Origin: a virus
Strand: one strand, 5' to 3'
DNA: 50,100 bases
Virus record (IMG/VR): IMGVR_UViG_3300036832_001188
Span: 1 to 50,100 of that record
Numbering within the stretch: position 1 is the first letter of the stretch; every line of letters starts with the position of its first letter. Under the pieces are notes generated by a model. The model was not told the DNA's origin. It did not search any database and worked only from the letters and a program-made list of their open reading frames with translations. Positions 1-50,100 of the stretch are shown here, one piece after another. The position numbers and the translations under genes are program-made.

Positions 1-127
1 CATATGTTTCATGGTGAGCCTCCGAGCTGCCGCTTCGGCAGCTAGTAACCTTCCACTACGACTGTCGCGATGCGACGGCCGCTGCTGTCGAGCAGGCGAA
101 ATTCGGCCCAATCGCTGCCGCCGTCGG
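1..127. repeat. Terminal direct repeat, left copy
   Basis: These 127 bases are identical to 49974-50100. An exact 127-base overlap at both contig ends is what a short-read assembler using k=127 leaves when it closes a circular or circularly permuted molecule. A real short terminal repeat is possible but less likely, because the repeat cuts through a gene array without interrupting it. Confidence 0.95.
25..43 (-). terminator. Hairpin overlapping a stop codon
   Basis: Perfect 8-bp stem (AGCTGCCG at 25-32, CGGCAGCT at 36-43) with loop CTT. It overlaps the stop codon (42-44) of the gene at 42-263 and runs straight into the CGGAGGCTC ribosome site of the next leftward gene. No T-run follows, so it may be an RNA-processing or translation-insulating element rather than a strong terminator. 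Confidence 0.6.
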
Positions 128-263
128 TGGCGGACGAGCACCAGATTTCCATGGACTCGGCGCAACTGATTTCAGCTTCGTTAAAGCCGGGGCCAAAGGG
201 CCGCTTGGCGGCGGCTTCTGACGCAAGCTTGTCTTTCGGTACTTTTCGAGCTAGATAACTCAT
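42..263 (-). CDS. Small hypothetical protein (73 aa)
   Basis: I do not recognise the family. The start is the ATG at 261-263, preceded by an AAGGA ribosome site about 8 bases upstream; a longer in-frame extension to 362 has no such site. The N-terminus is basic (SYLARKVPKDK), the middle has two cysteines (about residues 42 and 50) and the C-terminus looks like a short beta sheet (RLLDSSGRRIATVVVEGY). The stop codon lies in a perfect hairpin, and the next leftward gene begins about 30 bases on, across the contig junction at 49985. A partial second copy of this gene is present at the right end of the window because of the terminal repeat. Confidence 0.6.
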   Translation of the reverse strand: MSYLARKVPKDKLASEAAAKRPFGPGFNEAEISCAESMEIWCSSATDGGSDWAEFRLLDSSGRRIATVVVEGY

Positions 264-373
264 GGTTAGTGTCCTTGGTGGTTGGTGGGTGCTTCCTCGA
301 GCGCAACCTCCGGTGCGCTCTGGGAAACACTCAACTAGTTTCCAGTTACTCGGTCGGCTCAATTCCTTTCGAG

Positions 374-393
374 ATAGCGCGTCTTCGCGCTAT
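374..393 (-). terminator. Hairpin overlapping the AAA+ stop codon
   Basis: Perfect 8-bp inverted repeat ATAGCGCG/CGCGCTAT (374-381 and 386-393) with a 4-base loop. It contains the TAG stop (390-392) of the AAA+ ATPase gene. No T-run follows on the minus strand. Same stop-overlapping design as at 25-43, 44347-44362 and 49111-49125. Confidence 0.6.
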
Positions 394-1847
394 TGGTTCT
401 CGACCCACTCCTGCACGTCGCGGACGCGACGATCGATCTGATGCAAAATGCCGTCCGCGGCACCGTTCTGCATCGCGCGGTGCACCACGTCAGCGAGACT
501 CTTCTCCAGCGGCGGAGCCTCGGCCTTGGGGCCGCGGTTGAGCAGGCTGATCTGGTGGGTCATGGACTTGGCGGCCTCCGACAGCGCCTCGGTTCCCAGC
601 TCAGTGACTTGCGTGCCCTGTAACTGGTGCGAGAGTTGGTGGAGCTTAGCGCGCTTGACAACCTCGGCGATGACCGCCGGGATATTGCCAGCGAGCTGCC
701 TGCCTACGGCCGAGAGATCGGTGTCCTTATCGATCGCGCGACCGCCGTAGAGTCGCAGCAGCTTCTCGACGGCTGCCGCGTCCGGCGGCGTGACGTTGAT
801 AACCGCATCCAAGCGGCCCGGCCGCAGCATCGCGTCGTTGATGGCCTCCATATTGTTGGTCGTGAGAACCACGATGATGTTGTTCCGCTTGGACTCGATT
901 CCGTCGACGATGTTGAGGATCTCGTCCATTTCGACTGAGCGATTGCCGCTCATCGATCTGTCGATGTCTTCGCAAAACACTACAGCCGCTGGAGACTGGT
1001 ACTGCTTGGCGAACTCAACGGCCTGACCTAGCTCGTTTGCCCGTTCGGCGTAGATGAATGTGATGCCGTTGTCCACTGCGATCTTGCTGGCGACCACCGC
1101 CGCTAGCGTCTTGCCACAGCCGTACGTTCCACCTAAGAGGATGCCCCGCTTGAGCTGAATGCCGTTGGCGATGCAATCCGTGGCCCTGCGGATAGGAGTG
1201 AAGAGGTTAGTCGTCACGTTGGTCATCAAATCAGCGCTGTAGACGAGCGAGGACTCGCTAATGCCGCTGGTGTCCATGAAGCTGACCTGCGGCATATCGA
1301 GCGGATCGCCGTCGTCGTCAAGGAATCGCAACTTAACGGCCTGTCCCTTGTAGATAGAGTGGTTGAGGATCTCCTGCCTAACCTCATCGTAGAGGCCGCG
1401 GACGTAATCCTCGGACTTGCGTTTGACGTTAGCGCCGAGCGAGAAGACCAGCCGGCCTTTGTTGTTACGCTGGCTGCCAGTTTGGATGAATCCCTCGATG
1501 ACTGGGAGAGTGAAGCGACCCCATGGGACTTGCTGGACGTGACCGGGGCCAGTTTCGACGCTGATCAGCTGGGGCGGAGTTTTGCCGAACATCCCGGGGA
1601 TGCCGACGGCATCGGCCCAGCCGAACCGCTTCTTCAAGACCCGTTGCAGAGCAACGGCACCATCCCACGGGAAAGTGTCGAAAGTGTCGTGGACAATAAC
1701 GTCCTCTTCTTCGAATGCCATCCGGCGGGTTAGCAGCTCGATTGCCTGCTTAATGGACATGGCGGATGGGACCGTGAGGGATTCGCCCGTCCGCAGGACG
1801 TCGGCTACTGCTACCCTCTTAACTGCTTTGTCGAGTGTGTTAGACAT
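390..1847 (-). CDS. AAA+ ATPase
   Basis: 485-residue AAA+ ATPase of the Cdc48/FtsH-like classic clade. Motifs in order: Walker A GTYGCGKT (about residues 240-247), Walker B VVFCEDID (about 289-296), sensor-1 TTNN (about 329-332) and the arginine-finger segment RPGR (about 342-345), followed by a helical lid. The 200-residue N-terminal part has no domain I recognise and may bind substrate. The start is the ATG at 1845-1847, 10 bases after CGGAGGCTC; the upstream in-frame extension overlaps hairpins. There is no protease domain, so it may unfold or remodel a phage or host protein. It is the largest gene of the leftward small-gene block, and its partner is unknown. Confidence 0.9.
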   Translation of the reverse strand: MSNTLDKAVKRVAVADVLRTGESLTVPSAMSIKQAIELLTRRMAFEEEDVIVHDTFDTFPWDGAVALQRVLKKRFGWADAVGIPGMFGKTPPQLISVETGPGHVQQVPWGRFTLPVIEGFIQTGSQRNNKGRLVFSLGANVKRKSEDYVRGLYDEVRQEILNHSIYKGQAVKLRFLDDDGDPLDMPQVSFMDTSGISESSLVYSADLMTNVTTNLFTPIRRATDCIANGIQLKRGILLGGTYGCGKTLAAVVASKIAVDNGITFIYAERANELGQAVEFAKQYQSPAAVVFCEDIDRSMSGNRSVEMDEILNIVDGIESKRNNIIVVLTTNNMEAINDAMLRPGRLDAVINVTPPDAAAVEKLLRLYGGRAIDKDTDLSAVGRQLAGNIPAVIAEVVKRAKLHQLSHQLQGTQVTELGTEALSEAAKSMTHQISLLNRGPKAEAPPLEKSLADVVHRAMQNGAADGILHQIDRRVRDVQEWVENQ

Positions 1848-1871
1848 TTGACTTAGAGCCTCCGATTGTGT

Positions 1872-1890
1872 CAGCGGCGCACCGCCGCTG
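1872..1890 (-). other. Leader hairpin upstream of AAA+ gene
   Basis: Perfect 8-bp stem CAGCGGCG/CGCCGCTG with loop CAC, just upstream of the CGGAGGCTC ribosome site of the AAA+ gene. It sits downstream, in transcript order, of the larger hairpin at 1900-1946. Confidence 0.5.
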
Positions 1891-1899
1891 GATGTGTGA

Positions 1900-1946
1900 G
1901 AGCACATCAAAAGTGCCACTGGAGACAGTGGCACTGAGTTGTGCTC
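1900..1946 (-). terminator. Rho-independent terminator candidate
   Basis: Inner perfect 9-bp stem (AGTGCCACT at 1912-1920, AGTGGCACT at 1927-1935) followed on the minus strand by TTTTG. It is wrapped by an outer 7-bp stem (GAGCACA 1900-1906, TGTGCTC 1940-1946). It starts 3 bases after the stop of the 138-aa gene, so it could attenuate transcription into the AAA+ gene. Confidence 0.65.
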
Positions 1947-1948
1947 TG

Positions 1949-2365
1949 TTAGTTGAGCATTCCTCGGCGTTGGGACATGGCGGCGTCGGTCGCTGCTTTA
2001 ACGGCCTCGTCCATTCCGCGGAGACTTTCCGCGCCGTGGTCTTTCTCGAAGAGACCAGATACCATGGTATCGATCTTGTTCCAATCGCCCCTGAGCTTGA
2101 AGTAGAGGTCGAGGAACATCGCGGCCACGATCGCCGGCGGCGGCGTACCTTTCATGGCTTCTTCGTCGCGGGTGAGATGCTCGGAGATCTGAATCCAGGT
2201 GAGCAGTAGCATCCGCTCGACTGCTTTATGGTCGCCCCGCCGGTGGAGTTCGTGGGCCATTTTGGCCACGGCCACTGCGCCGTAGTGCGGGCAGTGTTTG
2301 CCTACCAGTTCTTTTAGATACTCTGCCATCTGTTCGAGATCGTTGTCTTTTGAATCGTTGTCCAT
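1949..2365 (-). CDS. Hypothetical helical protein (138 aa)
   Basis: No family recognised. The start is the ATG at 2363-2365, with the CGGAGGCTC ribosome site directly upstream. The protein is mostly alpha-helical and acidic at the N-terminus (MDNDSKDNDLEQ). It has a central segment ERMLLLTWIQISEHLTRDEE and a hydrophobic helix IVAAMFLDLYFKL, and it lacks a signal peptide or membrane segment. A strong hairpin follows the stop. It is probably cytoplasmic; its position beside the AAA+ ATPase suggests, but does not show, a shared role. Confidence 0.7.
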   Translation of the reverse strand: MDNDSKDNDLEQMAEYLKELVGKHCPHYGAVAVAKMAHELHRRGDHKAVERMLLLTWIQISEHLTRDEEAMKGTPPPAIVAAMFLDLYFKLRGDWNKIDTMVSGLFEKDHGAESLRGMDEAVKAATDAAMSQRRGMLN

Positions 2366-2390
2366 TTGAGCCTCCGATTGTTCAATCTGA

Positions 2391-2501
2391 CTATTCGAAG
2401 AATCCGAGTAACATCAGGATACACATATAGACGACCAGAAGGCCGCCGGTGAACCTACTTGGCAGCAGAGCTGCTAGTAGGAATGGTATTAGCCAGTGCA
2501 C
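2391..2501 (-). CDS. Tiny membrane protein (36 aa)
   Basis: GTG start at 2499-2501 with AGAGGAG about 10 bases upstream. The peptide begins HWLIPFLLAALLPS and continues GLLVVYMCILMLLGFF, giving two short hydrophobic stretches around a central SRFTGG turn; it is probably an inner-membrane peptide. It follows the 50-aa gene by 23 bases. A longer in-frame reading to 2639 exists but is proline/arginine-rich and antisense-like, so the short form is preferred. Function unknown. Confidence 0.5.
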   Translation of the reverse strand: MHWLIPFLLAALLPSRFTGGLLVVYMCILMLLGFFE

Positions 2502-2524
2502 ATCTTTGTTGCTCCTCTGTTTGG

Positions 2525-2677
2525 TTAGTCGTAGGGGTTGTGGCGGCGGATTCGCGCGAACGGTTGTCCGCTGAGGACAGGCCAGCAGTAGTAGCCTCGG
2601 CGGCACCAATCGCAGCCGCACAGCAGGGCCGCTATCCATCTGCGGATGCGGTAGCAGAAAACACTAATAGGCGACAT
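2525..2677 (-). CDS. Small Cys/Trp/Arg-rich protein (50 aa)
   Basis: ATG at 2675-2677 follows AGGAGGCTC by 5 bases, the signature leader of this block. The product is basic and rich in Cys, Trp, Arg and Tyr (CGCDWCRRGYYCW near residues 20-32), which could bind metal or nucleic acid. No family recognised. Its start overlaps the end of the upstream gene (2632-2841). Confidence 0.55.
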   Translation of the reverse strand: MSPISVFCYRIRRWIAALLCGCDWCRRGYYCWPVLSGQPFARIRRHNPYD

Positions 2678-2841
2678 CGTAGAGCCTCCTGATTGTGGAA
2701 CCTAGCGGTTCGCACGAGGGCCACTACCCGTCCGTGGTTGTGGCCCAGATCGTAGTGAAGCCGGGCCTCCGCGATGGCTGCGTCCCGCAACCGCTCTGCG
2801 GTGAGCATCTCTGCGAATCGCCTATGCCGCGCTACTGACAT
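2632..2841 (-). CDS. Small hypothetical protein (69 aa)
   Basis: The start ATG at 2839-2841 overlaps the end of the upstream gene (stop at 2822), consistent with translational coupling; no strong ribosome site is seen. The product is basic and helical (RFAEMLTAERLRDAAIAEAR), then His/Arg-rich. Its last 15 codons overlap the next gene and carry that gene's ribosome site, so the C-terminus may be unconstrained. No family recognised. Confidence 0.45.
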   Translation of the reverse strand: MSVARHRRFAEMLTAERLRDAAIAEARLHYDLGHNHGRVVALVRTARFHNQEALRCRLLVFSATASADG

Positions 2842-3043
2842 TCGTTGGTGCGTCCCCGGCACGGAGTGCCGGCGGCTTGTCCTCACAGATAACGATATGG
2901 CCGCTGATTGACAATTGGCGCGAAGCACGCTTAGCGGCATTTATCGATTTGAACTGCTGCTGCAGAGCGCCGTTAGCGTGGTAGATGGACTGCTTGACTC
3001 GTACATGCGTTGCATGTGCGCGGTTGTGCTGGTTAGCTTTCAT
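2822..3043 (-). CDS. Small basic protein (73 aa)
   Basis: ATG at 3041-3043 overlaps the stop of the upstream 43-aa gene (ATGA) and has GGAG 10 bases upstream. The product is basic with a helix ALQQQFKSINAAKRASRQ and then a beta-like segment SISGHIVICEDKPPAL. The charge suggests nucleic-acid binding, but there is no recognisable domain. Confidence 0.5.
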   Translation of the reverse strand: MKANQHNRAHATHVRVKQSIYHANGALQQQFKSINAAKRASRQLSISGHIVICEDKPPALRAGDAPTNVSSAA

Positions 3044-3171
3044 GGTAAGACGCTCCGCGTCCACCAGCCCCGGGCGAGGTAGTGGAGTATGCGAACATGA
3101 TGGCAGAGACCCGCTAACTGGAGCAGGTAGCGGGAATCATATTTCGACGACGATACTAATGGGATCGTCAT
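3040..3171 (-). CDS. Microprotein (43 aa)
   Basis: ATG at 3169-3171 preceded by CCGGAGGCTCCC, the signature leader, and ending in an ATGA overlap with the next gene. Those two signals are the main support. The peptide has a Leu/His-rich core (RYLLQLAGLCHHVRILHYL) that could form an amphipathic helix, then GWW. No family recognised. Confidence 0.5.
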   Translation of the reverse strand: MTIPLVSSSKYDSRYLLQLAGLCHHVRILHYLARGWWTRSVLP

Positions 3172-3355
3172 TTGTGGGAGCCTCCGGTTGAGTTGGAATG
3201 TAAGGGCGGCAGGACCAGTAGACTTTGGTCCTGTCGTCGTCGGCCGCTTCCTGGCGGCCGAGCGCGTCTGCGCGACACTCTTGCTGGCTATCGAACATAT
3301 CTTCTATGTAGGTCGTGCCAGCTAGAGTGTAGGTGAGAATCCAGGCGCTTAGCAT
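3137..3355 (-). CDS. Small, possibly exported protein (72 aa)
   Basis: The ATG at 3353-3355 overlaps the stop of the upstream 62-aa gene, so it is probably translationally coupled. The first 15 residues (LSAWILTYTLAGTTY) are hydrophobic but lack basic residues, a weak signal-like segment. The rest is polar with two cysteines. No family recognised. The start of the 43-aa gene lies inside its 3' end. Confidence 0.45.
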   Translation of the reverse strand: MLSAWILTYTLAGTTYIEDMFDSQQECRADALGRQEAADDDRTKVYWSCRPYIPTQPEAPTNDDPISIVVEI

Positions 3356-3537
3356 AAGCCGACGGCGGCGTAGCAATCTTCGAGCCAATTGCCACGATCG
3401 CTGTCCTCAATGCGATGGGATGGGGTAACGGGCGATTCGACTAGATGGCCTGTGTATAACTCTAGGGAATAGCCGCTATTTGGTTGGATCTTCCGCGCTT
3501 TTCGCTTCCGCGTCTTCGCGGTCTGTTGCGTTGTCAT
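3349..3537 (-). CDS. Small basic protein (62 aa)
   Basis: ATG at 3535-3537, 6 bases after ATCGGAGG. The N-terminus is strongly basic (TTQQTAKTRKRKARK) and the C-terminal half acidic-aromatic (RIEDSDRGNWLEDCY). The start lies within the end of the upstream HTH gene. A 7-bp hairpin (AGCGGCC/GGCCGCT, 3553-3571) precedes the ribosome site. The basic tail suggests nucleic-acid binding; no family recognised. Confidence 0.55.
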   Translation of the reverse strand: MTTQQTAKTRKRKARKIQPNSGYSLELYTGHLVESPVTPSHRIEDSDRGNWLEDCYAAVGLC

Positions 3538-4096
3538 GATGAGCCTCCGATGAAGCGGCCGGGATGGCCGCTGATTTGAATTCTGCGGGACGTGCAGTGA
3601 GATAATCCGCTACTGCATCTTTGCTTTCTGTAGATGATAGTGCTAGAAACTTTTCTAGCTCTTTTTGCTGTATTTCAAGGTCGCGTGCGCGATTCATTGC
3701 TTCTAGAACTTCCAGCGACGGCGCGTCCTCTGGTGAAGGAGTCCAGCCGGGCTGCATAAAATCTGGCGGCTTGCCATCTGGCATCTGATTGGGGTGCAGC
3801 GGGCCTGCGAATTGTGTCCAATTTTCGCGGCGGACTATGCGGCCAATTTGGCCGACGCTCATTCCGTATTCGCGGGCGAGCTGGCCTTGGGTAGCGCCGT
3901 TAGCGTAACTCTCACGGATTGCGGCAACTTGCGAGGCGGACAGCTTAGCTGACTTTAGATGGCCCTTGTGGAATTTGCTACTAACGTACTTGCCGCGCCG
4001 TGAAATGGTCATGGGGTCTGTTACTCCATTAAGCAATTGTTCTGTTGGCGTCATTTCCGCGGGCCTGAGCTTGGGCCTGAGTGGGAAGCGTATCAT
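3476..4096 (-). CDS. Helix-turn-helix DNA-binding protein
   Basis: About 206 residues if translated from 4096. The ATG at 4010-4012 has a GGAG site about 11 bases upstream and is an equally good start (178 aa). A segment reading LSASQVAAIRESYANG...QGQLAREYGMSVGQIGRIV is a helix-turn-helix of the type found in homing endonucleases and resolvase-like proteins. No HNH or GIY-YIG nuclease motif is present. The C-terminal third is an acidic coiled-coil-like helix (EIQQKELEKFLAL) followed by an Ala/Glu-rich tail that overlaps the next gene. It may regulate the leftward block or act at the repeat region just upstream. Confidence 0.7.
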   Translation of the reverse strand: MIRFPLRPKLRPAEMTPTEQLLNGVTDPMTISRRGKYVSSKFHKGHLKSAKLSASQVAAIRESYANGATQGQLAREYGMSVGQIGRIVRRENWTQFAGPLHPNQMPDGKPPDFMQPGWTPSPEDAPSLEVLEAMNRARDLEIQQKELEKFLALSSTESKDAVADYLTARPAEFKSAAIPAASSEAHHDNATDREDAEAKSAEDPTK

Positions 4097-4183
4097 GCTT
4101 CATGACATTTGGCAAGCCTAGTGGGTGATTGCTATAAATTGCTGTAGGATTAGGTAGTTGCGTGTAAAAGTCATCTTCCTGCT
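4097..4183. other. Leader upstream of HTH gene
   Basis: Start of a 550-base gene-poor stretch. I see no coding potential and no strong promoter match here. It leads into the inverted repeat at 4184-4331. Confidence 0.4.
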
Positions 4184-4331
4184 CTTCCTGCTTAATGGCA
4201 CAAGGTATCCGTAAATCTGTGGCGCTAGGTTCTTATGTATTATTTTAAAAAAAAATATTAATAAAAACATAAACTTAAAGAAACCCACGAATCCGCGCGT
4301 TCGCGGATGCCTTGTGCCATTAGGCAGGAGG
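4184..4331. repeat. 28-bp inverted repeat around AT-rich core (origin candidate)
   Basis: The left arm 4184-4211 and right arm 4304-4331 are inverted copies matching at 25 of 28 positions; all three differences are A/G. The 92-base spacer contains a run of about 45 bases of nearly pure A/T (4231-4275), striking in a GC-rich genome. Beside the right arm is a perfect small hairpin (ATCCGCG/CGCGGAT). The layout resembles a replication origin or a large operator; no gene lies inside it. Confidence 0.6.
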
Positions 4332-4370
4332 ATGATTTAGCTATTTCCATTGTAATTCAACAACTTACGT

Positions 4371-4470
4371 GAATTTCCCCATTAGGTGAGAAGAGGATTA
4401 GATATCGAATTTCCACTATTAGCATCCTCGCTAATTGCGAATTTCCGCTAATAGCAACCTAGCTAATAGC
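4371..4470. repeat. Iteron-like direct repeats
   Basis: Three same-orientation copies of GAATTTCCnnTAWTAGC-like units at about 4371-4386, 4407-4423 and 4439-4455, followed by a partial unit (GCTAATAGC, 4462-4470). Related units occur at 49605-49700. Together with the AT-rich inverted repeat just to the left, they look like protein-binding sites of an origin or regulatory region. Confidence 0.5.
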
Positions 4471-4529
4471 CCCTGGACGCTAATCTCGAGCGCGCAAAGG
4501 AACGCGGGGATTATTCATCCCCGCTAACC

Positions 4530-4586
4530 TTATCTGAGCCAAAGAATAGCGCAAACAACGAGCATGATCGCGAATACCAGTCCCAT
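4530..4586 (-). CDS. Putative 18-aa transmembrane microprotein
   Basis: The ATG at 4584-4586 directly follows ATCGGAGGCTCAC, the best form of the block's signature ribosome site. The peptide is one hydrophobic helix (LVFAIMLVVCAILWL) ending in Arg and a TAA stop. It is too short for gene finders, and the strong leader is the reason to list it. It could instead be a leader peptide or vestige. It lies between a terminator-like hairpin and the repeat region. Confidence 0.4.
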   Translation of the reverse strand: MGLVFAIMLVVCAILWLR

Positions 4587-4608
4587 GTGAGCCTCCGATT
4601 AAAAGATC

Positions 4609-4629
4609 GGAGGGCCGCGAGCGCCCTCC
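4609..4629 (-). terminator. Terminator-like hairpin
   Basis: Perfect 7-bp stem GGAGGGC/GCCCTCC with loop CGCGAGC, followed on the minus strand by GATCTTTT. It lies 23 bases past the stop of the 188-aa gene. The loop is identical to that of the hairpin at 5255-5277. Confidence 0.65.
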
Positions 4630-4651
4630 TAGTTAACTAGCCGTCTGTCAG

Positions 4652-5218
4652 TTAGGCGGACTTGAGAGTAGGAACATCAGCGGGCATCAGGCCAGCTAAT
4701 TCCTTGTCCAGCGCGCCGAGATCCACGTCCTTGGTTTTCTCTTTCTGCATCTGCTTAACTATCTGGGCGATATCGGGCTTCTGCAAATAGGCAATCCGCG
4801 CCTCCGGGGTCCACTTCTCAACAATCGCGCGGAGCTTATCGATGTCAGCCTTGGGTGACTTGACGTGCAGCGCCGCGACTAGCAGCGCCACATTGGAGCC
4901 GCTGCGACCCTTGCTAGTGTCCCATGTACCCGTTCGCAGAGCAGCGAACCATTCAAGCATGGCCGCCCACTTCTTCTCCATTGAGACATCAGCGCCGAGA
5001 TTAGTCTGCTGCTTCGCCTTTGCCTTGATACCCTCAAGCATGGCCGGGAGCCGCATGCTAGCTGGCATGTCCTTATTAGCATCAAAGCGAATATCCTTAC
5101 CCGGTACAAATGTACCGTCATCGCCCTTTGTGTTGTCCCGCAGCCGTAGCCGCAGGCTGCCTGCTTCAACGTCGATGTCGTCCACTATCGTAAGAGCACG
5201 TTTCTTTTCAGTCGCCAT
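4652..5218 (-). CDS. Hypothetical phage protein (188 aa), paralogue of 44354-44965
   Basis: The ATG at 5216-5218 sits 5 bases after ATCGGAGG. The N-terminal part looks like beta strands (RALTIVDDIDVEAGSLRLRLRD); the C-terminal two thirds are helical, with a LEWFAALRTGTW motif, a LLVAALH segment and a segment reading KLRAIVEKWTPEARIAYLQK. The same order of features occurs in the protein at 44354-44965, so the two are probably distant paralogues. No enzyme motif, signal or membrane segment. Hairpins with the same loop sequence lie on both sides of the gene. Function unknown. Confidence 0.75.
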   Translation of the reverse strand: MATEKKRALTIVDDIDVEAGSLRLRLRDNTKGDDGTFVPGKDIRFDANKDMPASMRLPAMLEGIKAKAKQQTNLGADVSMEKKWAAMLEWFAALRTGTWDTSKGRSGSNVALLVAALHVKSPKADIDKLRAIVEKWTPEARIAYLQKPDIAQIVKQMQKEKTKDVDLGALDKELAGLMPADVPTLKSA

Positions 5219-5254
5219 ATAGCCTCCGATTGGTGTCATGATTGGCACCGCTAA

Positions 5255-5277
5255 AGCCTCTCCGCGAGCGAGAGGCT
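5255..5277 (-). terminator. Terminator-like hairpin
   Basis: Perfect 8-bp stem AGCCTCTC/GAGAGGCT with loop CGCGAGC, followed on the minus strand by TTTA. It lies about 10 bases past the stop of the 65-aa gene and before the 188-aa gene. Confidence 0.6.
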
Positions 5278-5286
5278 AGCGCGCTG

Positions 5287-5484
5287 TCAACCAGTTAAGA
5301 GGGTTGCGAGAGTCGCGTCGCCGTCATGCGTCGCGGGCAGGTCTGCGAGCTTCGCGTACGCTGCGCGAGTCTTGTCTGCGAAAATCGCCAGTCCGCAACG
5401 ATCAAGCTGCGCCGCGTAGGCGTTTAACGCGGTCATGATCGTAACTAGCTCGTCGGTCGTAAGAGCAGGGCGATAACTGTACAT
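5287..5484 (-). CDS. Small hypothetical protein (65 aa), first gene of the leftward arm
   Basis: ATG at 5482-5484 directly after CCGGAGGCTCAC. An in-frame extension to 5637 would run into the divergent control region and is not favoured. The product is helical, Ala-rich and probably soluble (TTDELVTIMTALNAYAAQLDRCG, then KTRAAYAKLADL). As the first gene leftward of the divergent region it is probably among the earliest expressed, a position where phages often place host-takeover proteins; that role is an inference only. Confidence 0.6.
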   Translation of the reverse strand: MYSYRPALTTDELVTIMTALNAYAAQLDRCGLAIFADKTRAAYAKLADLPATHDGDATLATLLTG

Positions 5485-5733
5485 GTGAGCCTCCGGTTCC
5501 TGAGGATGAATGTCTGCGCAGGTAATTCTACTCGCCTGCCCACGATTAGCAAGCGCCGTCAAGCAGAACCAGCAAATATATATATGTGAGCTAGTGGCTA
5601 GTAGTGGCACGCTTATTGACTGGCATGCTAGTTGCATGAGCGCCGCTCAAGCGGCGCTGCATACTAGCTGGCGCTTGTCAACTACTATAATGCTAATAGA
5701 ATCAATGACTTGCGAGAGGGGTGGAGGGGAAAA
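5485..5733. promoter_or_regulatory. Divergent control region
   Basis: About 250 bases without a supported gene, between the leftward and rightward blocks. It contains an AT run (TATATATATG near 5576-5586), a perfect 8-bp hairpin AGCGCCGC-TCAA-GCGGCGCT (5639-5658), and a consensus -10 TATAAT at 5686-5691 reading rightward. No good -35 lies 16-18 bases upstream of that -10, so an activator may be needed. The tetranucleotide CTAG occurs four times in 5581-5700. Confidence 0.5.
5686..5691 (+). promoter_or_regulatory. Candidate -10 box for the late operon
   Basis: Exact TATAAT. Transcription would start near 5698, about 35 bases before the first rightward gene. The sequence 17-18 bases upstream (TACTAG/ACTAGC) is a poor -35. 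Confidence 0.4.
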
Positions 5734-28914: not shown

Positions 28915-30438
28915 ATGGCATTCGGCGGCGGCGGCGGAATGGGAATGGCGGCGCTTGGCGGTCTCGCCAGCGGCTACGTAGAGGGTCAGCAGGAGGGAAT
29001 GCACGAGCAGATGCAAGCGCTCGCGATCGGCGAGGGCAAGCAGAAAATGGAAATGACCCGGATGGATATCGACCGCCGTAAGCAACTGCTGGAGGCCCAG
29101 AAGTCCATCGCCGGCAAGATGCAGAGCATGAACACCGCGCTGGCGACCGACCCCCAAGGGTTAGCGACCCAACTCGCCCAGCGGTCGATGGTAGCCGCCG
29201 ATACGTACATGGATAAGGGCTTCCCCGAGGAAGCTATGGTTCAGTACAAAGAGGGCGTGACGCTGCTGACCAACGCCGCGAAGATGCAGGAAGTGCTCAG
29301 CGCTGAGCAGGACCGCAACTCTACGATGGTCGCTAATGTAGCAGATGATGTTATCGGCGCGTATAGCAAAGGGGGTCAGCAGGCGGGACAACGCGCCCAG
29401 GATAAAGCGATGATGACCCTACGTGAGCTGCACCCGAACGCTAAATTCCAGATCCAACCGGGCGAACCGTTCGATCCGCAGAAATGGGCCATGATTAAAG
29501 ACCACGCCACCGATGCGAAAGAAAAGGCGACTATTGCTAGGGATAAAGCCACCGAGGTGAAAGACTATGCGGAGGCTCGAGAGCACAGCGCCAAGGCTAA
29601 GAAAGACGAATACGATTTGCAAGAGGAGAAGAAGCTGGAGACTAGCATTGATAAAGAGGGTGGGGATTCGGGGAGTGTTGTCGGCCGTGTGGAAAGCGGA
29701 ATGATACAGGCGGGTTCGCCGTTTGGTCAGGTGGTTCCAGGATGGGGAACCGCTGCGGTGAAGGAGCGTAGGCTCAGAGTCGCGCAAGCCGCTCAAGACA
29801 TGAAGAGGGAACATCCTGACTGGTCGCCGGAACGAATAGGAGCAGAGCTTTCCAAGCGGCAGAGTACGTACGCGGCCGAACGAAGCGGTGAGATGGCGAA
29901 ACAACGAACCGTGCAGACACGCGCCGGCGCTATTGAATCCTCCATCAACGCTATGTTGGTACCCGGCGTCGGTTCTATTCCATTGTATGAAGCAGCGGCA
30001 CAAGAGACCGACTTCTCGCGGCTCAAGCCGGCGAAGACCGGGGAGCAGTGGTACATGGACAATGTCTCCGACCCAAAGCTTACTAACTATATGCTGAAAG
30101 CGAACGCGCTGGCGATGGAGTACGCGGTAGTGATGGCACGCGGCGGTAAAGGTGGAACAACCGATCGTGAGCACGCGCTCGATATGATCGCTAAAACCAA
30201 GACGCCCGAACAGGCTATGACTGTGGGCAATTCGCTTATTCAAGAGGCGCGAGCGCAGCTACTCGGCACGAAAAAGACGCTCAAGGGGACCACGGAGGAA
30301 GAGTTGACAGGTGAGGGATCACGAAACAATCCGTTTACGGTTACAAGTGACGAAGATTTCACCGATATCCCGCCGGGGTCGTACTTTATTGATCCTGCCG
30401 GTCAAACAAGACGGAAGCCCGGCGGCGAGGGTAGGTAA
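28915..30438 (+). CDS. Internal virion/ejection protein (507 aa)
   Basis: ATG after AGGAG. After a Gly/Met-rich N-terminus, long charged helices dominate (RRKQLLEAQKSIAGKMQSMN; KATIARDKATEVKDYAEARE). A C-terminal domain ends PPGSYFIDPAGQTRRKPGG, a recurrent ending in phage ejection proteins (a beta hairpin specifying that parameters follow Gly-Ser-Tyr/Phe). No lytic transglycosylase motif seen. Likely a core or injected protein. Confidence 0.65.
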   Translation: MAFGGGGGMGMAALGGLASGYVEGQQEGMHEQMQALAIGEGKQKMEMTRMDIDRRKQLLEAQKSIAGKMQSMNTALATDPQGLATQLAQRSMVAADTYMDKGFPEEAMVQYKEGVTLLTNAAKMQEVLSAEQDRNSTMVANVADDVIGAYSKGGQQAGQRAQDKAMMTLRELHPNAKFQIQPGEPFDPQKWAMIKDHATDAKEKATIARDKATEVKDYAEAREHSAKAKKDEYDLQEEKKLETSIDKEGGDSGSVVGRVESGMIQAGSPFGQVVPGWGTAAVKERRLRVAQAAQDMKREHPDWSPERIGAELSKRQSTYAAERSGEMAKQRTVQTRAGAIESSINAMLVPGVGSIPLYEAAAQETDFSRLKPAKTGEQWYMDNVSDPKLTNYMLKANALAMEYAVVMARGGKGGTTDREHALDMIAKTKTPEQAMTVGNSLIQEARAQLLGTKKTLKGTTEEELTGEGSRNNPFTVTSDEDFTDIPPGSYFIDPAGQTRRKPGGEGR

Positions 30439-43567: not shown

Positions 43568-43748
43568 CGAGCAGAGCGTCTACGTCAACGGGCTTTTTGG
43601 TTCGCTTCGCGGAGCGAATGCTGGCCTGCTGGCGCTCCTCGCGGAGGAGCCGCATCGATTCCTTTACGTCCTCTAGGGTTAGGGTTCCGTTTGCCTCCTT
43701 TAGTTGGAGCTGAGAGATTCGGTCTTGGGTCTCTGGGCTGTAAAGCAC
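43548..43748 (-). CDS. Small helical protein (66 aa)
   Basis: GTG start at 43746-43748. Charged, coiled-coil-like helices (DRISQLQLKEANGTLTLEDV; MRLLREERQQASIRSAKR) and a C-terminal VDVDALLDGLKKR motif that recurs in phage proteins before recombination genes. It overlaps the 110-aa gene in another frame. The composition of this frame is more protein-like than that of the overlapping one. Confidence 0.6.
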   Translation of the reverse strand: MLYSPETQDRISQLQLKEANGTLTLEDVKESMRLLREERQQASIRSAKRTKKPVDVDALLDGLKKR

Positions 43749-43917
43749 GGAAGTGATCCTCGATTAGTTGAATAAAAAACCGCTGATAGGCAGAGTGGGG
43801 TATACGGCCTTCGGCGGCGCTCCACAGATGCAAGCTAATCCTTGCCCAGACCTTGCGCGGCAGCGCAATGTTGAGCGCTACGCTGGGCTCAATATTGGGT
43901 TTACGGCCGCGGGTCAC
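43585..43917 (-). CDS. Putative DNA-binding protein (110 aa) overlapping the 66-aa gene
   Basis: GTG start at 43915-43917. The first 57 residues look real: a basic N-terminus (TRGRKPNIEP), then LNIALPRKVWARISLHLW and YQRFFIQLIEDHF, possibly a ribbon-helix-helix. The last 50 residues are Pro/Arg/Gly-rich and are translated from the DNA that encodes the 66-aa protein in another frame, so they may be unconstrained. First gene of the replication operon. Confidence 0.5.
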   Translation of the reverse strand: MTRGRKPNIEPSVALNIALPRKVWARISLHLWSAAEGRIPHSAYQRFFIQLIEDHFRALQPRDPRPNLSAPTKGGKRNPNPRGRKGIDAAPPRGAPAGQHSLREANQKAR

Positions 43918-44353
43918 TTGGGTAGCTCGAACATTCGGATTCGTCGTTCTCGTTTATGCAGACTTCGTCTACGATTGTATATTTCTGCGCCGCTCGGCGG
44001 GCGCGGCATTGGCACCACCACCAGTAGGGCCGTTTCCACCAGACTGGACGGGGATCGATTAGCTCGAAATTTATCAGGGGGGCCTTTGGCGGCGGCGGCG
44101 CGCCGGGAATTATGTGCGCAGATTGATCGATTTATGTGCGTAGAGTGTGCGCCTCGCCGAAGGCGAGGTCAAGACGTGCGTCACACTTCTAGCGAATTTC
44201 TATGCATAGGGCCGGCCCCGGAGGCCGGCGGTCCCCCGTAAACACAAACGGCCCCTCACGGGGCCGCTGTGCGCCCGCCGTCGGAGGCTCATTTCCTCGG
44301 CGGACTTCACCGCGCGCTAGGACACCAGCGCGGGTGCATTTGGATTGCGGCCG
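43918..44353. other. Structured gene-poor region upstream of replication genes
   Basis: About 435 bases. Three hairpins are visible: CCTCGCC/GGCGAGG (44152-44168), GCCGGC/GCCGGC (44211-44229) and CGGCCCC/GGGGCCG (44249-44266). A repeated TTATGTGCG (44110-44138) precedes them. On the minus strand an open frame (about 43903-44062; Trp-rich with a CQCR motif, ending DESECSSYPSDPRP) exists but I cannot find a convincing start. The region could hold a terminator-plus-promoter boundary. Confidence 0.5.
44249..44266 (-). terminator. Rho-independent terminator candidate
   Basis: 7-bp GC stem with loop TCAC (plus strand), followed on the minus strand by TTTGTGTTT. Lies about 88 bases past the stop of the 203-aa gene and would separate the leftward small-gene block from the replication operon. 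Confidence 0.65.
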
Positions 44354-44362
44354 TCAGGCCGC
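44347..44362 (-). terminator. Hairpin enclosing a stop codon
   Basis: 6-bp stem GCGGCC/GGCCGC whose 4-base loop holds the TGA stop (44354-44356) of the gene at 44354-44965. Same stop-overlapping design as at 25-43, 374-393 and 49111-49125. Confidence 0.55.
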
Positions 44363-44965
44363 GGGAGCCTCCTTGAACCGGGAGAGTAGGCTATCGGTAT
44401 CGACCGGCGTTGCACGCTCCTGTTCCAGCCGCTCGATGATTGGGCGGATGCGCTTGTCTTGGGCGAGAGCTTTGCGGTCGATGCCAGACATGGCCTTGAG
44501 GCCGGCGCGGATGTCCTCGAGCGAATTTCCAGTGAACTCCACGAGGGCCAGAGCGAGCACACCAGCGGTCTTGCTGGCAGCCTGACCGTTGCCCCGGGCC
44601 ACGGCCCATTGGCCGGCAGAGAGCCTCTCGTGCAGCTTGTCCGTGGCCTCGGGCCACTTCGCTACGGTGTCCGCCGATTCGTTGGCAAGTGCCGCGCCGT
44701 ACTTGGTTAGTGCGCCCTGCGATACGAACTGATTGGCTAGATCTGGGTTCAGCGGGTAGGTGCGGGTGGCACCGCTGCGGAAGTCTAATCGCACCGCAAT
44801 ATCGCTGATGGAAGCGGCCGCTAGGGTGGTGGCGTCGACCCCATCGAGCGGCTGTCCACCCACCAATATCTCCTTAACGAGGTTCGTCCTCGAACCCGCG
44901 AACTTGACCATTCGGCCATCGGCCATCCTGACTGTTTCTACGACTGGTTTCTTTGCCTTGGGCAC
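44354..44965 (-). CDS. Hypothetical protein (203 aa), paralogue of 4652-5218
   Basis: GTG start at 44963-44965, 7 bases after AAGGAG (TTAAGGAGACAGAC). N-terminal basic stretch, a beta-like part (VETVRMADGRMVKFAG), and a helical C-terminal part with SAGQWAVARGNG, LALALVEF and IRAGLKAMSGIDRKALAQ, ending SLLSRFKEAPAA. The order of an x-G-x-W motif, a Leu/Ala helix, and an (I/L)R-x-x-(L/V) helix parallels the 188-aa protein at 4652-5218. Distant paralogy is inferred by eye. No enzyme motif. Function unknown. Confidence 0.7.
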   Translation of the reverse strand: MPKAKKPVVETVRMADGRMVKFAGSRTNLVKEILVGGQPLDGVDATTLAAASISDIAVRLDFRSGATRTYPLNPDLANQFVSQGALTKYGAALANESADTVAKWPEATDKLHERLSAGQWAVARGNGQAASKTAGVLALALVEFTGNSLEDIRAGLKAMSGIDRKALAQDKRIRPIIERLEQERATPVDTDSLLSRFKEAPAA

Positions 44966-47668: not shown

Positions 47669-47856
47669 TAGCGGCCCCGCAGGATAGTTTGGATGCTGGA
47701 CAGCAGGGTTGTGTGCTGGTGAAGCACCTGGACAGTTTCCTCGAGCGCCACGGCGATTTGATGGGTGTTCTTGATACCAGCTTCCATGGCGGTGGCGAGC
47801 CGGATTAGGTTGGATTCGAGATCCTCGAGCTTGGTGGCGAATGCGAGGTATTCCAT
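47668..47856 (-). CDS. Small coiled-coil protein (62 aa)
   Basis: ATG at 47854-47856 after GGAGGGCCGC. Helical throughout (FATKLEDLESNLIRLATAME; LEETVQVLHQHTTLLSSI), probably a dimeric or trimeric coiled coil. No family recognised. Overlaps neighbours by TAATG on both sides. Confidence 0.6.
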   Translation of the reverse strand: MEYLAFATKLEDLESNLIRLATAMEAGIKNTHQIAVALEETVQVLHQHTTLLSSIQTILRGR

Positions 47857-48056
47857 TAGCGGCCCTCCGTTAGTGCGGACCATTCTTCGTCGCTGGTGCC
47901 GCTGATGAGGAACTCTCTGTCGGCCGCCGACAGGTGTGGCATGACGTTCTGGATTAGCTCGCCCTGTTGCCAGCGGGCTAGCTGTTCGGGGGTGCAGTCG
48001 ATGTCGCGGGTGCGTGTGATGCCGGTGAGGGCGGATTTGCGGGTTACTCGAATCAT
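47856..48056 (-). CDS. Conserved small phage protein (66 aa)
   Basis: ATG directly after CGGAGGCTCAACC. Begins IRVTRKSALTG and continues CTPEQLARWQQGELIQNVMPHL, SAADREFLISGTSDEEW: a recurrent small phage and plasmid family (PEQLARWQ...REFIxTGxxxxEW) of unknown function. Cytoplasmic. Confidence 0.7.
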   Translation of the reverse strand: MIRVTRKSALTGITRTRDIDCTPEQLARWQQGELIQNVMPHLSAADREFLISGTSDEEWSALTEGR

Positions 48057-48265
48057 GGTTGAGCCTCCGAGTATTTGGCGATGGCGGCGCGTGCGCGCGC
48101 ATTGGCGAGGGAGCCATAGTCTTTGTACTCGGCGATCTCGCGCAGCGCGGTCAACAGTTCGGCGTTGGCGGACTCGAGACCCTCGATGTAGTCGAGGGCC
48201 TCGTTAGCGAGTCTGCGGAGCATGATAACGTCGAGGGCGGCGAGGCCCCTATCTTTAGAGGTCAT
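48053..48265 (-). CDS. Small helical protein (70 aa)
   Basis: ATG overlapping the 3' end of the zinc-finger gene; CGGAG lies about 10 bases upstream. Helical (VIMLRRLANEALDYIEGLES; LLTALREIAEY). Carries the CGGAGGCTC site of the next gene in its last codons. Unknown function. Confidence 0.55.
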   Translation of the reverse strand: MTSKDRGLAALDVIMLRRLANEALDYIEGLESANAELLTALREIAEYKDYGSLANARARAAIAKYSEAQP

Positions 48266-48449
48266 CGTTGGTGTGCTCCGCTACCTTTGTGACTAGTCCG
48301 TGAAGGGCGAGGCGCGCTGGCAGCACTACATTCCAGTTACAGTCGTTGCAGCAGCGGCCGTCATTGACGGGCTGCGCGTTATTGCCCCATTCGATGAAGG
48401 GTAGGAAACAGATCGAGCAGATTTTGGGTTGGTCTAGTTGGGTGGTCAT
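48255..48449 (-). CDS. Conserved phage zinc-finger protein (64 aa)
   Basis: ATG 6 bases after AAGGA, ATGA overlap with the HTH gene. CSICF, NNAQPVNDGRCCNDCN and VVLPARL match a small phage zinc-binding family seen in many genomes (CxxC...NNAxPxxxGRCCxxCN). The role is unknown; it may bind nucleic acid or a host protein. Confidence 0.75.
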   Translation of the reverse strand: MTTQLDQPKICSICFLPFIEWGNNAQPVNDGRCCNDCNWNVVLPARLALHGLVTKVAEHTNDDL

Positions 48450-48928
48450 TTGGTGTCCTTGGCCTCGGTGGGCGTGAGTTTGCCGGCTCGCCAGCGACGG
48501 ATCATTGAGCCGCTGATTCGGAATTTGTCGGCGGTGGCTCTGTGGCCGTGCTCTTTGTAGTAGGAGAGGATCTCCTGTTTCATGGCGGGGGTGAACTTGC
48601 GGCGCGTGGTTTTGCGGGTCTGGGAGCCGGTTTCGATTCGACGGGCGTATTCGGCGGCGTAGTTGCGCTTGCTGTTGTCGTAGACGCGCTTGCTGTCAGC
48701 GTAAGAGCGGCGGCGGGCCGCTTTAAACTTGCCGCGGTTGGCGCGGTACCACTCGCGCGCCCAGCGGCGCTTGCGCTCGAGAGCCGATTCGCCGCTAGCT
48801 GGCGCGGTGCCGTTGGCGCGGCCTTGCGCGCCGCTGGTGATTAGGCGGACTGCCTCCAGGTAGAGGGTCTGCTGCAGGCCCTCGCCTAGCTTGGGAATGA
48901 TTTCGTTCCAGTCGATCTGTGATTTCAT
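48446..48928 (-). CDS. HTH protein, transposase-like (160 aa)
   Basis: ATG 5 bases after AGGAGGCTC. Basic central helices (ERKRRWAREWYRANRGKFK) then a C-terminal helix-turn-helix (FTPAMKQEILSYYKEHGHRA; DKFRISGSMIRRW), like the DNA-binding part of IS3-family OrfA or Trp-repressor-like proteins. No integrase core. It may regulate the leftward block. Confidence 0.7.
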   Translation of the reverse strand: MKSQIDWNEIIPKLGEGLQQTLYLEAVRLITSGAQGRANGTAPASGESALERKRRWAREWYRANRGKFKAARRRSYADSKRVYDNSKRNYAAEYARRIETGSQTRKTTRRKFTPAMKQEILSYYKEHGHRATADKFRISGSMIRRWRAGKLTPTEAKDTK

Positions 48929-48937
48929 TTGAGCCTC

Positions 48938-49096
48938 CTAGACTCGCCATCCTTTTCGGCAGCGAAGATGCGATTTAAGATTATCTACAGTGTAATGGCG
49001 ACGTGTTGGATAGTAGCTGTAGTGGTAGCGGCCGGACCGCCAGCGGACATATTCTGCCCAAGCTGTGTTTAGGAAATCCCGCTTCCAATCCTGCAT
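48938..49096 (-). CDS. Small basic protein (52 aa)
   Basis: ATG directly after ACGGAGGCTCACACC, the signature leader. Aromatic, basic peptide (DFLNTAWAEYVRWRSGRYHY; PTRRHYTVDNLKSHLRCRKG). The AGGAGGCTC site of the next gene follows its stop within a few bases. Possibly RNA- or DNA-binding. No family recognised. Confidence 0.55.
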   Translation of the reverse strand: MQDWKRDFLNTAWAEYVRWRSGRYHYSYYPTRRHYTVDNLKSHLRCRKGWRV

Positions 49097-49110
49097 GGTG
49101 TGAGCCTCCG

Positions 49111-49578: not shown

Positions 49579-49604
49579 ACGATTGGTTCCTGTGTGACTT
49601 GGGG

Positions 49605-49700
49605 GAATTTCGGATTAGTGGGAATTTCGGTATAGCGGAATTTCCAAATAGCGGGAATTTCGATATAGCGGAATTTTGGTATAGCGGACCTGGACAATAG
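49605..49700. repeat. Iteron-like tandem repeat inside coding sequence
   Basis: Five to six tandem units of about 16 bases (GGAATTTCGRTATAGC-like) spaced 15-17 bases. They encode the C-terminal peptide repeat (IPLYRNS, twice) of the zinc-ribbon gene. Related GAATTTCC units lie at 4371-4470. Confidence 0.7.
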
Positions 49701-49809
49701 CGGGCGCTGGCCGCAGCGCCGCGCAGCGCGGACAGAGGCCGCCGGTGCCGTAGACTAGCGGGATGCGGGCGCCGCAGCGGGCGCACTGATGGTAGCGTTG
49801 CTGGGTCAC
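49615..49809 (-). CDS. Zinc-ribbon protein with repeat tail (64 aa)
   Basis: GTG start overlapping the previous stop (GTGA). Two CxxC knuckles (Cys9/Cys12 and Cys26/Cys29; CARCG and CPRCA) form a zinc ribbon. The C-terminal third is a repeat-derived peptide (IPLYRNSRYLEIPLYRNS), translated from iteron-like DNA. The ribbon may bind nucleic acid; the tail may exist only because of the DNA repeats. Confidence 0.65.
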   Translation of the reverse strand: MTQQRYHQCARCGARIPLVYGTGGLCPRCAALRPAPAIVQVRYTKIPLYRNSRYLEIPLYRNSH

Positions 49810-49985
49810 TCAGCGGATCTGTCTGGGTAATGGTGAATGCAAACGAACTGGTTGTCGTTGGAATAACCTAGTAGGTGGCCACCGGTGGCGTAACAGTAAC
49901 CGTCCGGTGCCACGTAACGGTAGACGAGCGGCACGAGCGCCGCGAACGATAGACCGATTACTATTCCGATGAGCATATGTTTCAT
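49806..49985 (-). CDS. Small membrane protein (59 aa)
   Basis: ATG at 49983-49985, directly after CGGAGGCTCACC. An N-terminal membrane helix (LIGIVIGLSFAALVPLVYRY) is followed by a short Cys/His/Tyr-rich domain (CYATGGHLLGYSNDNQFVCIHH), probably outside the membrane. The leader lies in the terminal repeat, so this gene spans the genome junction. Function unknown. Confidence 0.65.
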   Translation of the reverse strand: MKHMLIGIVIGLSFAALVPLVYRYVAPDGYCYATGGHLLGYSNDNQFVCIHHYPDRSAE

Positions 49986-50100
49986 GGTGAGCCTCCGAGC
50001 TGCCGCTTCGGCAGCTAGTAACCTTCCACTACGACTGTCGCGATGCGACGGCCGCTGCTGTCGAGCAGGCGAAATTCGGCCCAATCGCTGCCGCCGTCGG
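49974..50100. repeat. Terminal direct repeat, right copy
   Basis: Identical to bases 1-127. It carries the start of the 59-aa membrane protein gene and a duplicate 3' part of the gene annotated at 42-263. Confidence 0.95.
50015..50100 (-). CDS. Partial duplicate of the 42-263 gene
   Basis: Exact copy of the 3' end of the 73-aa gene, created by the terminal repeat. It is the same gene cut by linearisation, not a second gene. Confidence 0.8.
   Translation of the reverse strand, partial: DGGSDWAEFRLLDSSGRRIATVVVEGY

Follow-up and report, generated by a model that had tools for sequence, protein, structure and literature searches.

A small RNA encoded after a phage gene probably pairs with repeated Shine-Dalgarno leaders of an early regulon

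We analysed 50,100 nucleotides of viral DNA (positions 1 to 50,100 of IMG/VR record IMGVR_UViG_3300036832_001188, the whole stretch being called the window below), in which a short leader containing GGAGG recurs 2-8 nt from leftward start codons. With good confidence, drawn from sequence comparison, we propose that the phage encodes a trans-acting small RNA (sRNA) that pairs with these Shine-Dalgarno (SD) leaders of an early regulon, most likely shutting their translation off. The pairing of the putative seed with the leaders is well supported by co-variation. An RNA element of conserved place and fold, co-varying with the leaders, is likewise supported, while we infer its expression, the repression and its timing. 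The window belongs to a tailed phage with terminase, portal, DNA polymerase and primase genes.

We counted 12 occurrences of the leader CGGAGGCTC in the window, where 0.77 were expected (both strands together). All ten minus-strand copies lie directly 5' of a leftward ATG; two copies of a variant, AGGAGGCTC (2682 and 48931), and one of another, CGGAGGCTA (5220), also stand 5' of starts. The ends of the window are identical over 127 bp (1-127 and 49974-50100), which gives a circular genome of 49,973 bases. Because of this overlap, the leader and hairpin at 16-43 and 49989-50016 are one site, which an earlier note on this DNA had counted twice. With the duplicate merged, the CGGAGGCTC, AGGAGGCTC and CGGAGGCTA leaders mark 12 target genes, so that the note's count of at least ten leftward starts held. 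Put differently, 11 distinct copies of GGAGGCTC and one variant precede leftward starts and none precedes a rightward start. The two plus-strand copies, at 29570 within the open reading frame (ORF) 28915-30438 and at 44282 between genes, precede no start either. Rightward genes do not use the leader, in line with the note. Equal density on the plus strand, which the note had named as fatal to its idea, was not found (ten minus-strand copies versus two). The leaders, all on the minus strand, are as follows.

16-24, minus strand: leader before gene 49806-49985; identical copy to 49989-49997 through the end overlap
49102-49110, minus strand: leader before gene 48938-49096
48931-48939, minus strand: leader variant AGGAGGCTC before gene 48446-48928
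48061-48069, minus strand: leader before gene 47856-48056
5487-5495, minus strand: leader before gene 5287-5484
5220-5228, minus strand: leader CGGAGGCTA before gene B (4652-5218), a paralog of gene A; this target is conserved in relatives
4589-4597, minus strand: leader before small ORF 4530-4586
3541-3549, minus strand: leader before gene 3349-3537, within the upstream ORF
3178-3186, minus strand: leader before ORF 3040-3171, within the upstream ORF
2682-2690, minus strand: leader variant AGGAGGCTC before gene 2525-2677
2368-2376, minus strand: leader before gene 1949-2365
1856-1864, minus strand: leader before the AAA ATPase gene 390-1847

The plus-strand comparison that the note proposed would have revealed the most informative leader copy, the antisense one at 44282. 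Read on the minus strand, the match at 44282-44290 is GGAAATGAGCCTCCGA, an exact anti-leader, and it is intergenic between gene A and a terminator. It lies in the following element.

44354-44965, minus strand: gene A, neighbour of the candidate RNA in relatives
44242-44353, minus strand: candidate small RNA, located in the gene A 3' region and made up of a 5' hairpin (44308-44336), a seed hairpin and a terminator
44273-44305, minus strand: seed hairpin GUCCGCCG[AGGAAAUGAGCCUCCGA]CGGCGGGC, its loop carrying the anti-leader
44281-44292, minus strand: seed AUGAGCCUCCGA, complementary to the leader UCGGAGGCUCAU
44247-44268, minus strand: intrinsic-terminator-like hairpin AGCGGCCCC-GTGA-GGGGCCGTT with a T-rich tail, directly after the seed hairpin

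The candidate RNA (44242-44353) folds with a z-score of -4.4. As is typical of an sRNA, it combines a non-coding stem-loop and an intrinsic terminator with an exposed seed that is complementary to several unlinked targets. Predicted duplexes between the seed and the 12 leader genes of the window ranged from -18.5 to -23.8 kcal/mol (median -21.8), whereas other starts on that strand had a median of -10.1. Rfam returned no match in the window at the gathering threshold and none in the element at E values up to 1; that is, the element matches no described RNA family, c4-type antisense RNAs included. A sense copy of GGAGGCTC at 44365-44372, close to where the gene A coding sequence ends, could pair in cis with the seed (44282-44290) in unprocessed mRNA; this copy may be due to chance.

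We then compared relatives. Named phages gave no near-DNA matches, and the IMG/VR relatives carry terminases 50-66% identical to that of the window. We retrieved 89 loci by means of gene A homologs (29-46% identical in 8 relatives); some 36 records were read completely or almost completely. The candidate RNA was found in relatives at the same position after gene A and in the same layout. In 22 of the 24 elements compared the seed lies within a stem of score at least 6 (versus 14% of random positions), and in nearly all relatives compared a terminator directly follows the seed hairpin on its 3' side.

The leaders themselves differ among the phages (GGAGGCTC, GGAGACTC, GGAGACCC, GGAGACTA, GAGGCTCA, GGGAGGCG, AAAGGACT and AAACGAGG), and the loop of the element matches the leader of its own phage for GGAGGCTC, GGAGACTC, GGAGACCC, GGAGACTA, AAACGAGG, AAAGGACT and GGGAGGCG. 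Across 11 phages, 55 of the 58 same-strand copies of the own leader stand 5' of a start codon, and in all 11 an antisense copy is found 45-223 nt after the gene A stop. A scan of viral contigs for the exact leader of the window gave 26 single, scattered matches; an initial broad search for leaders, in which the flanks were short, was low in power.

The GGAGG core and its 2-8 nt distance from start codons would fit a strong, host-favoured SD copied among early genes, with the antisense hairpin a coincidence. This explanation is largely refuted and we give it very little weight. In four relatives (G002, G004, G006 and G013), the sequence preceding starts, on the strand that carries the polymerase genes, is GGAGACTC instead of GGAGGCTC. 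The CTC flank is thus constant between them and the window while the SD changes from GGAGG to GGAGA. In an ordinary SD only the 16S-pairing bases would be conserved; here CTC is constant and the fifth SD base varies, and the CTC flank has no pairing partner at the usual 3' end of 16S rRNA. Since CTC is kept while an SD base changes, a plain ribosome binding site is no explanation. The lack of leaders at rightward genes and the antisense copy at the same place in 11/11 genomes, co-varying with the leader, also speak against it. The earlier note had rightly sensed a strand-specific post-transcriptional signal beyond a plain ribosome binding site.

Short repeats near starts of other phages have been interpreted as protein sites (PMC3203893), and the leader might accordingly be a DNA operator or the site of a phage RNA-binding protein, with the copy near 44290 as one more site. 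We consider this improbable. A protein site needs neither inverse orientation nor exposure in a loop, whereas the extra copy is antisense in 11/11 genomes, occupies the loop of a hairpin that a terminator follows, and varies together with the leader. The note had suggested a phage RNA-binding protein as partner; complementarity of the leader to the loop of the co-varying RNA hairpin (element 44242-44305) does not favour this. Its other suggestions, RNA processing or translational insulation, are not favoured by the evidence either, which consists instead of co-variation between leader and loop across phages.

The co-variation was analysed in several ways. In a scan that used the leader only and was blind to the element, the best antisense-to-leader 8-mer fell 45-223 nt after the gene A stop in nine genomes (binomial p ~1.5e-11, with genomes treated as independent though they are not fully so). 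For 24 seeds, we counted 73 matches between own seeds and own SD windows, versus 24.6 when seeds were permuted among genomes (20,000 permutations, permuted maximum 53); control windows gave 21 matches when set 41-60 nt upstream and 13 when taken from the opposite strand. The start region of gene B, compared with the own seed in 21 phages, showed complementarity averaging 8.38 nt versus 5.22 nt when permuted (0 of 100,000 permutations reached it). Among eight sequence-distinct seed classes, the true assignment of seeds to gene B leaders was the best of all 40,320. At the start of gene A itself, used as a control, complementarity to the seed averaged 4.35 nt. Seed-target complementarity is thus kept by co-variation, as expected of a trans-acting base-pairing sRNA.

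Several points weigh against the proposed sRNA. In the 24-seed, stem and gene B tests, the seeds were chosen visually as the loops that follow gene A. When gene B leaders were compared bluntly with the 500 nt downstream of gene A at 60 non-redundant loci, the result was significant (p 8e-5) but weak, and about half of these loci lack an obvious leader match after gene A, so that the element is absent or different there. G003, G011 and G019 are weak members of the gene B comparison, the unbiased scan of the window ranks the antisense copy at 29578, which is within a structural gene, equal to that at 44290, and no promoter-like site was found near the candidate RNA. A side observation concerns other lineages (L152, L168, L113 and L173): there the terminator downstream of the gene A stop has (A)TGTCTCC in its own loop, which may be an anti-SD seed located in the terminator.

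Many relatives have a leader at the gene that follows 200-370 nt downstream, as would be expected if the element acted only in cis as an attenuator of that gene. We think this highly improbable. The corresponding gene of the window (43585-43917) lacks a leader, the nearest leader gene lies ~3.6 kb upstream on the same strand, and a terminator separates the element from what comes after. Moreover, the gene B leader co-varies as well, thousands of bases away.

For a trans-acting RNA, we propose the following course of events. The sRNA would be encoded by the phage in the 3' region of gene A, with the leader as its target site. Its hairpin loop (44273-44305) would present the anti-leader seed and the terminator at 44247-44268 would end the RNA. 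Pairing of the seed in trans would span 8-12 nt, taking in the SD and the bases 3' of it, at ~12 leftward, non-structural genes; gene B (4652-5218) and the AAA ATPase gene (390-1847) would be two of these. All leader genes of the window lie earlier than gene A in the same direction of transcription. Once leftward transcription reached gene A, the terminated 3' RNA would accumulate and the leader genes would be silenced together. Since the pairing would cover the SD core 2-8 nt before the start codon, its most likely effect is to block ribosome binding.

The RNA might also pair with the leaders without repressing them, acting instead through mRNA cleavage, stabilisation or protection of the ribosome binding site until release. 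Twelve-base RNA duplexes can serve as nuclease substrates, and hairpins stand upstream of some leaders, both of which would suit such a role. We regard it as unlikely, though clearly less so than the other alternatives, since coverage of the SD core just before the start is the classical repressive position, as for the phage c4 RNA (PMC12197685). Repressors, sigma factors and polymerases are the usual terms in which phage regulation is described; if repression is correct, one RNA and the dozen sites built for it, evolving together, would form a compact master switch that needs no protein. The code of leader and seed could then be read straight from the genome sequence in many uncultured phages.

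Most of these phages possess both gene A and its paralog gene B (4652-5218 in the window), and in most relatives gene B carries the leader. Neither gene had a Pfam match; a single weak match was to an unannotated PHROG, and the structure model of gene A matched no fold in the PDB. Among the other leader targets, relatives have UvrD-like helicases and a ParB-methyltransferase, and the window has the AAA ATPase. In Microcystis phage Mel-JY34 gene A is present, with no recognisable pair of leader and seed. A search for the host through gene A relatives in bacterial genome contigs found none.

The earlier note had described a recurrent order of stop codon, perfect hairpin and leader. The hairpins that it listed exist, and two of them (4609-4629 and 5255-5277) do share the loop CGCGAGC. 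The note had named hairpins no commoner than in shuffled sequence as fatal to its idea, but stems are commoner: perfect stems of at least 7 bp numbered 58 versus 17.2 in shuffles, and those of at least 6 bp 154 genome-wide versus 70, being densest in the left arm. A stem of at least 6 bp lies no more than 50 nt upstream of 7 of the 12 leaders (p ~4e-4 versus the same genome arm), but the order is not general: the five leaders at 48938, 48068, 5494, 2689 and 2375 lack such a stem. In relatives only 5 of 18 leaders have one (at least 7 bp in 1 of 18). Of the listed hairpins, those at 374-393 and 44347-44362 have no leader and start after them, and that at 3553-3571 falls within the upstream ORF; some hairpins are in coding sequence. 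Nor are they intrinsic terminators throughout, with a GC stem and T run at every leader hairpin: T-rich tails follow only some, e.g. 1912-1935 and 4609-4629. We rejected the upstream hairpins as a conserved module, because relatives do not keep the stems. Although enriched in the window, they are not retained along with the leader; they probably do not define it and may be an optional extra with a local effect on RNA stability.

At 4592-4629, 3' of gene B, two mutually exclusive hairpins are possible, GGAGGGC/GCCCTCC (4609-4629) and CCTCCGAT/ATCGGAGG (4592-4613); the latter, if formed, would hide the leader of ORF 4530-4586. Elsewhere, iteron-like repeats GGAATTTCGGTATAGCG with 16-17 bp spacing and a related 32-bp direct repeat occur at 49604-49704 and 4406-4469. 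An inverted repeat of 29 bp and 90% identity (4183-4211 and 4304-4332) surrounds an A/T-rich stretch at 4183-4332, possibly an origin or regulatory region.

The closest known parallel to the leader is found in cluster K mycobacteriophages, whose SAS and ESAS repeats are extended SD repeats (Pope et al. 2011, PMC3203893). Like the window leader, SAS is a conserved extended SD in one orientation before non-structural genes (11-19 genes for SAS). An inverted repeat lies upstream of about half of the SAS copies, comparable to the stems at 7/12 leaders here, and K1 phages have a single reverse-oriented SAS, as the antisense copy here. The leader of the window, CGGAGGCTCA, does not fit the 13-bp SAS consensus GGGATAGGAGCCC, however, and differs in sequence, in its unrelated phages and in lacking a conserved inverted repeat. 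That is, it works like SAS but is not a member of it. Similar start-associated repeats are known from Microbacterium cluster EF (PMC7302621). We rejected these as a similar system, since their only antisense AAAGGAC is within dnaE and no hairpin element was found. The role of SAS-type repeats was stated as unknown up to 2024-2025 (PMC11373665, PMC12699233), with ESAS repeats now interpreted as promoters or protein sites (PMC11373665). In the SAS literature searched, the only hint at an RNA partner was a remark that an RNA or protein, encoded by phage or host, might bind.

In Adephagia (JF704105), we found that the single reverse-oriented SAS (58682-58694) forms the apical loop of a hairpin that is long and nearly perfect (58659-58711 of the record). 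It lies in the unannotated gap between genes 92 and 93, is kept in other K1 phages, and late transcription of Adephagia is reported to begin in this gap (PMC11373665). At that site the hairpin was not found in Pixie, Keshu, ShedlockHolmes and SirPhilip. Since K3 phages, SirPhilip and AnnaSerena do not show an anti-SAS hairpin, the extension to SAS is a lead only. It is conceivable, and offered tentatively, that start-associated leaders of several unrelated phage groups, K1 SAS included, are targets of phage hairpin RNAs that stop early translation at the early-to-late switch. If true, this would be a general RNA-run regulon of phages, and the SAS repeats, unexplained since 2011, would gain a directly testable partner in the loop of the K1 reverse-oriented SAS hairpin.

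Among described RNAs, the c4 antisense RNA of P1/P7 (PMC12197685) resembles the candidate as a phage RNA whose complementary loop sequences block a ribosome binding site. The target of c4 is a single phage mRNA, whereas here one seed matches ~4-12 dispersed genes through a shared, co-evolving leader. VpdS of VP882 (PMC12197685) is likewise a phage-encoded trans-acting sRNA with several targets, phage mRNAs included; unlike in the window system, no dedicated repeated target leader is reported for it. Blocking of a ribosome binding site by a phage antisense RNA is known from c4; for a phage RNA that has its own set of repeated target leaders evolving along with it, we found no description in the literature, of which few subscription journals were covered.

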